From Agromyces soli (lineage in GTDB: Bacteria; Actinomycetota; Actinomycetes; Actinomycetales; Microbacteriaceae): a stretch of DNA of 64,000 bases. The stretch covers positions 3,286,001-3,350,000 of the forward strand of contig NZ_CP094533.1 in the NCBI RefSeq assembly GCF_022811605.1, written 5' to 3'. The notes beneath the pieces are model-generated. The model worked only from the letters and a program-made list of their open reading frames with translations. It searched no databases and was not told where the DNA came from. Below, piece by piece: positions 59,733 through 61,262 of the stretch. The position numbers and the translations under genes were made by a program. Each line of letters starts with the position of its first letter. Positions within the stretch are counted from its first letter, which is position 1.

Positions 59733-60191
59733 ATGAGCACTCTCGACCAGCTCGACCGAGCCCTCCTCACCGCGCTCGCCGCCGACCACCGCGCGACCGT
59801 CGTCGCCCTCGCGGAGCGCCTCGGCCTCAGCCGCAACACGGTGCAGGCCAGGCTCGCCCGGCTCGAGGCATCCGGCGCCTTCGCCTCCTTCGAGCGGGCG
59901 ATCGACCCGGCGCCGCTCGGCTACCCGCTCGAGGCCTTCGTCGCGGTGCACGTGCGGCAGAAGCAGCTCGGCGAGGTCGTCGCCCGCATCGCGGAGATCC
60001 CCGAGGTGCTGCAGGCGCACGGGCTCTCCGGCTCGGTCGACCTGCTCGCCCGCGTCGTCTGCCGCGACGCGCACGACCTCTTCCGCATCGACGGCGAGAT
60101 CCTCGCGATCGACGGGGTCGAGCGCACCGAGACCTCCCTCTCGATGGGCGAGCTCATCCCCTATCGGATCGGGCCGCTGCTCGAGCGGTAG
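59733..60191 (+). CDS. Lrp/AsnC-family regulator (BkdR-like)
   Basis: 152 residues. N-terminal helix-turn-helix about 5-55 (LDQLDRALLTALAADHRATVVALAERLGLSRNTVQARLARLEASGAF) and a C-terminal RAM/AsnC effector domain. Amino-acid-binding regulators of this type commonly control bkd operons. The divergent position next to bkdA suggests response to branched-chain amino acids or oxoacids. Predicted leaderless from TACACT at 59720. Confidence 0.9.
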   Translation: MSTLDQLDRALLTALAADHRATVVALAERLGLSRNTVQARLARLEASGAFASFERAIDPAPLGYPLEAFVAVHVRQKQLGEVVARIAEIPEVLQAHGLSGSVDLLARVVCRDAHDLFRIDGEILAIDGVERTETSLSMGELIPYRIGPLLER

Positions 60192-60245
60192 CCGCGGCCG
60201 GCCGAACTCCGGGGCCCGCGTCGGTCCACGAGTGCCAAGAAACCG

Positions 60246-60307
60246 TTGCAAACGAATACTTGCAAACAAACGCTTGCAAAGCTTTCTTTGCAACGGTATC
60301 TTTGCAT
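60246..60307 (+). repeat. Five TTGCAA/T hexamers at exact 14-bp spacing over the ArsR-like promoter
   Basis: TTGCAA occurs at 60246, 60260, 60274 and 60288, and TTGCAT at 60302: five hexamers whose starts are exactly 14 bases apart, in a short AT-rich patch. TTGCAA is self-complementary. The last two units flank or overlap the predicted -10 TATCTT (60297-60302), seven bases before ATG 60310. The array is an operator candidate for the following regulator. Confidence 0.75.
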
Positions 60308-60309
60308 GC

Positions 60310-60966
60310 ATGAGCGAGACGACTCCGAGCCACATCGAGGCCCAGCCGAGCAGCACCCGGCATCCCGGCATCGACCACGTGCTGTCGGCGACGGCGCTGA
60401 AGTCGCTCGGGCACCCGCTGCGCATCCGCATCTACGACGAGCTGTCCTCCTACGGCCCGCTCACCGCGAGCGGGCTCGGCGAACGGCTGAGCGAGTCGAG
60501 CGGCTCCATGAGCTACCACCTCCGCCAGCTCGAGCGCGCCGGCCTCGTCCGCGAAGACACCAGCCGCGGCACCGGCCGCGAGCGGTGGTGGGAGCGCACG
60601 CCCGGCTCGGTCGCCGTGCCCGACCCGCAGGACCTGCCCCCGGGCAGCGCCGAGCGGCTCGCCGCGAAGCTCGTCGAGGACGAGTGGCTCACGATCCGCG
60701 ACCGCAACTATCGCGACTTCGTCTCGGACGGCCCGCACGTCTTCGGCAAGGAGTGGCTCGAGGTCGCCACCAGCGACACGATCAACCTCCGTCTCACCGT
60801 CGAACAGCTCGCCGAGCTCGTCGCCGAGATCGACGCGGTGTTCCTGAAGTTCGGCGATCGCTACAAGCGCACGCCCACGCCGGGCTCCATGCCCGTGCAG
60901 ATTCACCTCAACGCCTTCCCGCTCGTGCGCGGCGAGGCCACCCAGGACCACACTCGGAAGGAGTGA
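60310..60966 (+). CDS. ArsR-like winged-helix transcriptional regulator
   Basis: 218 residues. An ArsR-type winged helix lies at about 20-85 (LKSLGHPLRIRIYDELSSYGPLTASGLGERLSESSGSMSYHLRQLERAGLV, then the wing with RGRERWWERTPG), followed by a regulatory domain with LAELVAEIDAVFLKF. No Cys metal-site cluster is present. Start ATG 60310, predicted leaderless. The promoter holds the 14-bp TTGCAA array, which suggests autoregulation. The following small gene starts 2 bp after it. Confidence 0.88.
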   Translation: MSETTPSHIEAQPSSTRHPGIDHVLSATALKSLGHPLRIRIYDELSSYGPLTASGLGERLSESSGSMSYHLRQLERAGLVREDTSRGTGRERWWERTPGSVAVPDPQDLPPGSAERLAAKLVEDEWLTIRDRNYRDFVSDGPHVFGKEWLEVATSDTINLRLTVEQLAELVAEIDAVFLKFGDRYKRTPTPGSMPVQIHLNAFPLVRGEATQDHTRKE

Positions 60967-60968
60967 TC

Positions 60969-61181
60969 ATGACCACCGCCACCCTCTCCCCCGGCGCCGG
61001 CCGACTCGCCGGCCTCGCCGTCCGCAGCGGCCTCGGCCTCGCGAGCTGGGGCCTGCGCCGCGCCAGCCGACGCACCGACCGCGAGCAGCTGCTCGGCCGG
61101 GCCGAGGCCCGGGCCGCCGCCGAGCGCGCCCTCGCCGAGCGCGACGAGCTGTTCCGCAGCGCGGGCTACCTCCCGCTCTGA
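60969..61181 (+). CDS. Small uncharacterised protein coupled to the ArsR-like gene
   Basis: 70-residue protein (begins MTTATLSPGAG). An N-terminal hydrophobic-to-amphipathic segment (LAGLAVRSGLGLASWGLRR) is followed by an Arg/Ala/Glu-rich helix-forming tail (GRAEARAAAERALAERDELFRSAGYLPL). GGAAGGAG lies just before the ATG. It starts 2 bp after the regulator stop. I do not recognise the family; similar regulator-plus-small-protein pairs seem common in Microbacteriaceae. It could be membrane-associated or a partner of the regulator. Confidence 0.6.
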   Translation: MTTATLSPGAGRLAGLAVRSGLGLASWGLRRASRRTDREQLLGRAEARAAAERALAERDELFRSAGYLPL

Positions 61182-61225: not shown

Positions 61226-61262
61226 CGGATGCCCCGCCCGAACGAATCGGGCGGGGCATCCG
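61226..61262. terminator. Bidirectional terminator between the small gene and pnp
   Basis: Perfect 15-bp stem CGGATGCCCCGCCCG (61226-61240)/CGGGCGGGGCATCCG (61248-61262) with a 7-base loop between convergent genes. Confidence 0.8.

Follow-up and report, generated by a model that had tools for sequence, protein, structure and literature searches.

Ahead of the gene for an ArsR-like regulator in Agromyces soli lies a run of near-identical hexamers spaced with complete regularity. The question raised by this locus is what such an array is for, and whether it could be read by the regulator whose promoter it covers. We analysed it within a 64-kb stretch of the genome (64,000 nucleotides, the window), and across the relatives of the regulator.

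The array and its promoter

A preliminary description of this DNA had reported five hexamers at an exact 14-bp step, and the sequence agrees: TTGCAA begins at 60246, 60260, 60274 and 60288, and TTGCAT at 60302. The patch was also described as AT-rich within GC-rich DNA, and indeed the GC content is 50% in 60250-60349 against mostly 65-85% farther away; the open reading frame at 60310-60966 is likewise as given. The hexamer had been called self-complementary, which is true of the four TTGCAA copies but not of TTGCAT, and the last copy was said to overlap the -10 element, an overlap that exists but involves a single base (TATCTT, 60297-60302). The features of the locus are as follows; positions such as -28 and +14 belong to the array coordinates used for promoters that could be anchored on a -10 element.

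60232-60239, + strand: weak sixth box, degenerate (GTGCCAAG) but in register, 14 bp ahead of box 1
60246-60251, + strand: box 1, TTGCAA, read as right-pointing (GCAAAC)
60260-60265, + strand: box 2, TTGCAA, read as right-pointing (GCAAAC); array position -28, filled in 111/115 anchored loci
60274-60279, + strand: box 3, TTGCAA, right-pointing (TTGCAAAG), doubling as the -35 element
60288-60293, - strand: box 4, TTGCAA, left-pointing (CTTTGCAA), within the promoter spacer
60297-60302, + strand: -10 element TATCTT, from geometry and conservation
60302-60307, - strand: box 5, TTGCAT, left-pointing (CTTTGCA), overlapping the end of the -10 element at the likely transcription start; array position +14
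60310-60966, + strand: HTH_20/ArsR-like winged-helix regulator, 218 aa (PF12840, E=1.3e-14)
60969-61181, + strand: 70-aa open reading frame, second gene of the operon, with no Pfam or NCBIfam match
61227-61261, no strand: GC-rich hairpin found by eye, between the 70-aa frame and a convergent gene

These five are the only TTGCAW sites in the window. Their number alone is at chance level (9 strand-matches against a shuffled mean of 6.04, a count reached in 19 of 100 shuffles). Chains at a 14-bp step in the shuffled 118-bp intergenic stretch grew to at most two boxes, and did so twice in 200,000 shuffles. Throughout the 3,810,275-bp genome the pattern TTGCAW-N7-9-TTGCAW is found only at this array, the reversed control pattern giving one forward and one reverse match. 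The intergenic shuffles and the genome-wide pattern search together rule out a chance origin. Boxes 3 and 4 form the dyad TTGCAAAG-N4-CTTTGCAA, which also appears in our scan as a terminator-like hairpin. A search of the genome allowing up to two mismatches returned no second exact GCAAAG-N4-CTTTGC; it gave 11 and 11 matches for the real pattern and 65 and 65 for the control, and since the control exceeds the real pattern, such weak matches carry no meaning. The sequence that follows the degenerate sixth box, AAGAAACCG, is present in the two closest orthologues (L006, L007) as well.

We assigned the -35/-10 pair from its geometry and its conservation, and no promoter at this array was listed by a generic sigma-70 scan. 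Box 3 (TTGCAA, 60274) lies 17 bp upstream of the -10 element, with the ATG at 60310. Anchoring succeeded at 61 of 62 loci tried (L065 and L088 were left out of the 62, and L028 of the 61), and in 60 of the 61 the -10 element starts 9 bp past the start of a box, a figure that is partly circular because the rule demands the TA and last T of the -10 element and tried an offset of 9 before turning, upon failure, to 8 or 10. With the -10 element nine bp past a box start, the preceding box would therefore serve as the -35 element with a 17-bp spacer. The commonest -10 sequence is TATCTT (31/61), and in 57/61 a distance of 6-7 nt separates the -10 element from the first ATG or GTG, as in leaderless genes. 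The regulator gene itself is probably leaderless.

Conservation of the array with the regulator family

Regulator matches at E <=0.001 were found in 47 of 60 genomes (own included). All of the 30 best loci, again including our own and reaching down to 46% identity, carry in-phase TGCA boxes at 14 bp; 29 have four to six boxes and L028 has three plus one degenerate, while L029 shows an extra TGCA 13 bp farther out. A set of 64 loci, which includes 29 retrieved with a DNA pattern whose gaps were left free plus more distant homologues, yielded 217 box spacings of up to 40 bp, of which 216 are 14 bp and one is 28 bp; shuffles of this set give about 0.1 spacings per distance.

The preliminary description had proposed a check on relatives for conservation of hexamers and spacing, and the 14-bp step proved to be kept in 142 of 172 unique homologue promoters. 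By the same motif rule, eight others have a 13-bp step, one a 12-bp step and 21 none. These loci were found by protein, so circularity is largely avoided, with the reservation that 10 of the 20 rows of the protein profile came from DNA-pattern loci. The sample holds 80 homologues kept of at least 558 candidates, together with 40 further matches picked by hand, and Agromyces is heavily represented in it. The 58 most similar homologues (model E <1e-70) have a 14-bp array without exception, and among the genera represented by the 172 homologues are Kribbella, Brevibacterium, Arthrobacter, Microbacterium, Cellulosimicrobium, Demequina and Jiangella. In all 218 unique loci taken together, the spacing is 14 bp 523 times, 13 bp 25 times and 12 bp four times but never 15 or 16 bp, and every other distance up to 30 bp occurs 0-5 times. 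A motif-free scan of the same promoters ranked lag 14 top in 175/218, against 13/218 after shuffling (one shuffle each). Among the 25 promoters lacking an array by the motif rule, the top lag was 14 in 11, 13 in one and scattered in 13. No array could be made out by eye either in L088, L196, L197 and L207; the last three (Promicromonospora, Myceligenerans) and L088 form a supported clade without an array in the stretch examined, in which the array has apparently been lost.

The association also holds in the reverse direction. Each of the 33 same-family arrays with a 14-bp step that were fetched, our own among them, adjoins a homologue, a count that leaves out near-perfect tandem repeats of a 14-bp unit (G100, the first place in G135, and G248 C106). 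A class-wide pattern search of 345 genomes gave 24 loci (L105-L128), 12 with a homologue and 12 without, and the 12 homologue-free loci contain no even 14-step array. TTGCA triplets at a 13-bp step were seen with no regulator homologue in the fetched stretch at L119, L124 and L131 (G440:C61), and a 13-step triplet alone is therefore not specific.

The anatomy of the array could be followed in 115 protein-found loci anchored by a rule that demands the TA and T of the -10 element and boxes, weak ones included, at -14 and 0; anchoring failed for 27 of the 142 step-14 loci, which are absent from these counts. Boxes at -14 (111/115) and 0 (109/115) are thus partly built in, while those at the remaining positions are free of the rule: boxes occupy -28 in 111, -42 in 78 and -56 in 14 of the 115, and +14 in 63/114. 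Out-of-phase control positions held boxes in 0-7 of 575. The GCAAAG reading predominates up to -14 (103/115 at -14) and CTTTGC from 0 onward (101/115 at 0), and this switch of direction places the dyad of the array in the promoter spacer. Outside the hexamers conservation is mainly one-sided, AAAGAAA being kept on the right-hand side of upstream boxes and CT on the left-hand side of downstream ones.

The step length itself can be treated as a trait. Labelled 13 or 14, it changes four times on a tree of 180 rows. The 13-bp clade has ten members (SH-aLRT 97), eight of them by the motif rule; the other two, L252 and L280, were assigned by one lag setting, the other setting placing only one unlabelled locus at 13. 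Boxes in this clade are often TGTGCA-like. Support for the 13-bp step comes from motif counts, with 25 spacings where shuffles give 0.9, and from reading the promoters; the lag scan adds none, as lag 13 came top in 11/218 promoters, no more than in shuffles (12/218). Two 13-step loci outside the main clade, L128 and L279, were flagged as long branches by the tree program. L130 (G605) and L248 (G597) belong to one genus and are sister regulators; they share the GCAAAG half-site and have steps of 13 and 14, respectively. Distant paralogues with other motifs (ACAAG/CTTGT, TTCGCGAA) have a best lag of 14 in examples such as L083, L096, L104, L255 and L266, and others (L082, L095, L101) do not. L082, a paralogue in the A. 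soli genome itself (2146600-2152600), has a promoter with a different 32-bp palindrome, CCACAAGGACTG..CTCCTTGTGG, and a best lag of 11; its palindrome suggests that the specificities of the paralogues are insulated. The step thus seems to be more conserved than the letters, and a step that outlasts its letters would point to protein-protein contacts.

The regulator and its operon

The protein encoded at 60310-60966 belongs to the ArsR/HTH_20 winged-helix superfamily (PF12840, 54.4 bits with a cut-off of 27; PF01022, 27.7 with a cut-off of 22). It scores 43.9 bits with the NCBIfam metalloregulator model NF033788, below the cut-off of 55, and offers no cysteine ligands for metal or As(III), having no Cys among its 218 residues; sites made of His/Asp are possible. 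The homologue regions are Cys-free in 201/218. Its nearest named orthologues are from Agromyces species (68-72% identity). An AlphaFold model built with 20 aligned homologues (mean pLDDT 88.6) shows long C-terminal helices. The best Foldseek match is Kfla_6221 of Kribbella flavida (PDB 4g6q; E 4.7e-5, 16-20% identity), which also has the longest alignment among the VIA matches listed (168 residues, Z 10.8, rmsd 4.9); values up to Z 11.9 occur in that list for shorter winged-helix matches. The winged-helix part gives fold matches to CzrA, ArsR and SmtB. The 4g6q entry is titled 'functionally unknown protein', and we know of no operator for it.

Upstream, a gene of the Lrp/AsnC type on the same strand ends at 60191; the array therefore fronts only the regulator operon here. 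Beyond the 70-aa frame, the hairpin at 61227-61261 has no T run and was not listed by our T-tail terminator rule; it probably ends the operon as a terminator shared with the convergent gene, which we take from its translation to be pnp-like. The gene after the regulator in 72 named relatives is a small frame (<=130 aa) in 56, MFS-like in eight (called by sequence motif), something else in six and absent in two, and in 52 of the 72 the next gene begins inside the regulator frame, 4 nt short of its end. The transporter at L212 matches MFS_1 and MFS_3. The small proteins often show, by eye, a W and an R-R in a helix, and the two tested had no Pfam match. Control of an exporter may have been the ancestral role; in this genome only the small protein adjoins the regulator. 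Many relatives (L149, L151, L167, L177 and others) have divergent neighbours that start like M3-family peptidases; a Pfam search with a 45-aa piece of one gave no match.

How the array may be read

We consider it likely that the array is the autoregulatory operator of the adjacent HTH_20/ArsR-like regulator and that several dimers bind to it cooperatively. The half-site would be GCAAAG, and the core GCAAAG-N4-CTTTGC at 60276-60291, where facing half-sites span the -35 element and the promoter spacer. Winged-helix dimers need half-sites about one turn apart, as this arrangement provides. Outward of the core, half-sites would recur every 14 bp, or 1.33 turns, so that neighbours are rotated by about 120 degrees and three steps (42 bp) make four turns. 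Dimers could thus be packed side by side round the DNA, covering the -35 element, the -10 element and the start point; RNA polymerase would be shut out and the two-gene operon kept off until a ligand freed the regulator from its operator and turned the operon on. Binding of the regulator to the array, repression, cooperativity and the ligand are what we infer from the comparative data. The preliminary description had envisaged several copies of the regulator bound in register, and the comparative evidence strongly supports that part of it; the form that it implies, one dimer to each hexamer, is disfavoured by the one-sided flanks.

How the dimers would be packed is a separate matter. The arrangement that fits slightly best, and to which we give about an even chance, places one dimer on each gap, so that neighbouring dimers would share each palindromic TTGCAA. 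The outer half of a box should then depend on whether a further box lies beyond it, and three comparisons, each resting on few independent pairs on the tree, run in that direction: the outer TT of the -28 box is present in 58/74 loci with a further box and 16/35 without (p=0.001), that of the -42 box in 10/13 and 21/63 (p=0.005), and the outer A of box 0 in 28/55 and 12/46 (p=0.014). The -56 box shows no difference in its outer TT (1/5 and 0/9), and the C/T flank expected of shared boxes was not tied to a further box (p 0.56, 0.67 and 1). That missing flank would suit a different arrangement, in which one subunit sits on each box head-to-tail, as in BldC, and a canonical dimer contact is made once, at the central dyad. 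Upstream boxes do read as direct repeats with only the last one or two inverted, and odd numbers of boxes are common (3, 5 or 7 exact boxes in 34/62 loci). Against this arrangement, terminal boxes are less conserved in their outer half than internal boxes, as sharing between dimers predicts (with the same few independent pairs), and distant arrays of three boxes, GCAAAG-N4-CTTTGCAAAG-N4-CTTTGC, have a middle box that can be read both ways (e.g. L259); we regard it as possible but rather unlikely. It is improbable that each dimer is instead centred on one palindromic TTGCAA, with five dimers for five hexamers. Four of the five copies are self-complementary, as this would require, but flank conservation is mainly one-sided, and a palindrome of 6 bp cannot accommodate two recognition helices spaced by one turn.

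More distant explanations do without the regulator as the bound protein. Another conserved protein could occupy the array and the regulator be merely the gene under control, but array and regulator co-occur in both search directions, the pair stays together while its neighbours vary (AsnC-type, divergent genes, MFS or small frames), and distant regulator subfamilies have differing motifs as well, all of which makes this quite improbable. Least credible, and in our view hardly tenable, is that the array is no regulator site at all and represents a phased AT-rich promoter element, curved DNA or an expanded tandem repeat. The patch is AT-rich, and the dyad of boxes 3 and 4 was listed as a terminator-like hairpin; however, a 14-bp step does not keep phase with the helix, and 216 identical steps of 217 over many genera are not given by chance or repeat growth. 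Since boxes are kept while spacers vary among relatives, tandem-repeat expansion is rejected.

The preferred reading, a cooperative autoregulatory operator, has relatives among known systems. CmtR of Mycobacterium tuberculosis, to judge by the title of a report, reportedly combines cooperative multi-operator autorepression with cadmium sensing, so that the ArsR family would already provide a precedent for autorepression of this kind. Several candidate operator sites, identified by sequence, overlap the regulator's own promoter here too. CmtR senses through cysteine ligands, whereas the regulator at 60310-60966 has no cysteine. The ArsR-like Rv2034, in the part of its description available, represses its own gene via a palindrome of two inverted repeats 4 nt apart, with a footprint from -30 to +3 on the coding strand (PMC3338718). 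It shares the 4-nt spacer with GCAAAG-N4-CTTTGC but has a single palindrome and a different half-site, and that part of the paper describes no phased array (PMC3338718). BldC of Streptomyces, a small winged-helix-turn-helix (wHTH) protein, is described in the available part of its source as MerR-like and as binding cooperatively to a variable number of direct repeats, one protomer per 9-bp repeat, with protected tracts one helical turn apart (PMC5859096). In the present case the step is 14 (or 13) bp, the regulator has the HTH_20 fold and the array contains a dyad, and our locus thus shows neither 9-bp direct repeats nor the MerR-like wHTH without a dimerisation domain that defines the BldC family. 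No description of a fixed-step GCAAAG array was found in the open-access literature searched. What appears to be new is a putative operator array of rigid step across many actinobacterial genera, standing in 8/72 relatives before an MFS-like exporter.

More tentatively, and with somewhat less than even confidence, we propose that HTH_20 repressors across the class Actinomycetes use a ruler operator, with dimers that wind round their own promoter at a fixed step of 14 bp (13 in one clade), palindromic half-sites each shared by two neighbouring dimers, and a step that is set by protein contacts and outlives changes of motif. The operon is a widespread one and probably self-controlled; some lineages have an MFS-like exporter in it and most a small protein. 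At least 558 candidate relatives, of the 'ArsR-like' or 'winged helix' kind, may become regulators whose likely sites can be read from the genome. The rigid step makes both cooperativity and protein geometry directly testable, and the sisters L130 and L248, with 13- and 14-bp steps on identical half-sites, offer a natural experiment in the measurement of distance by a repressor.
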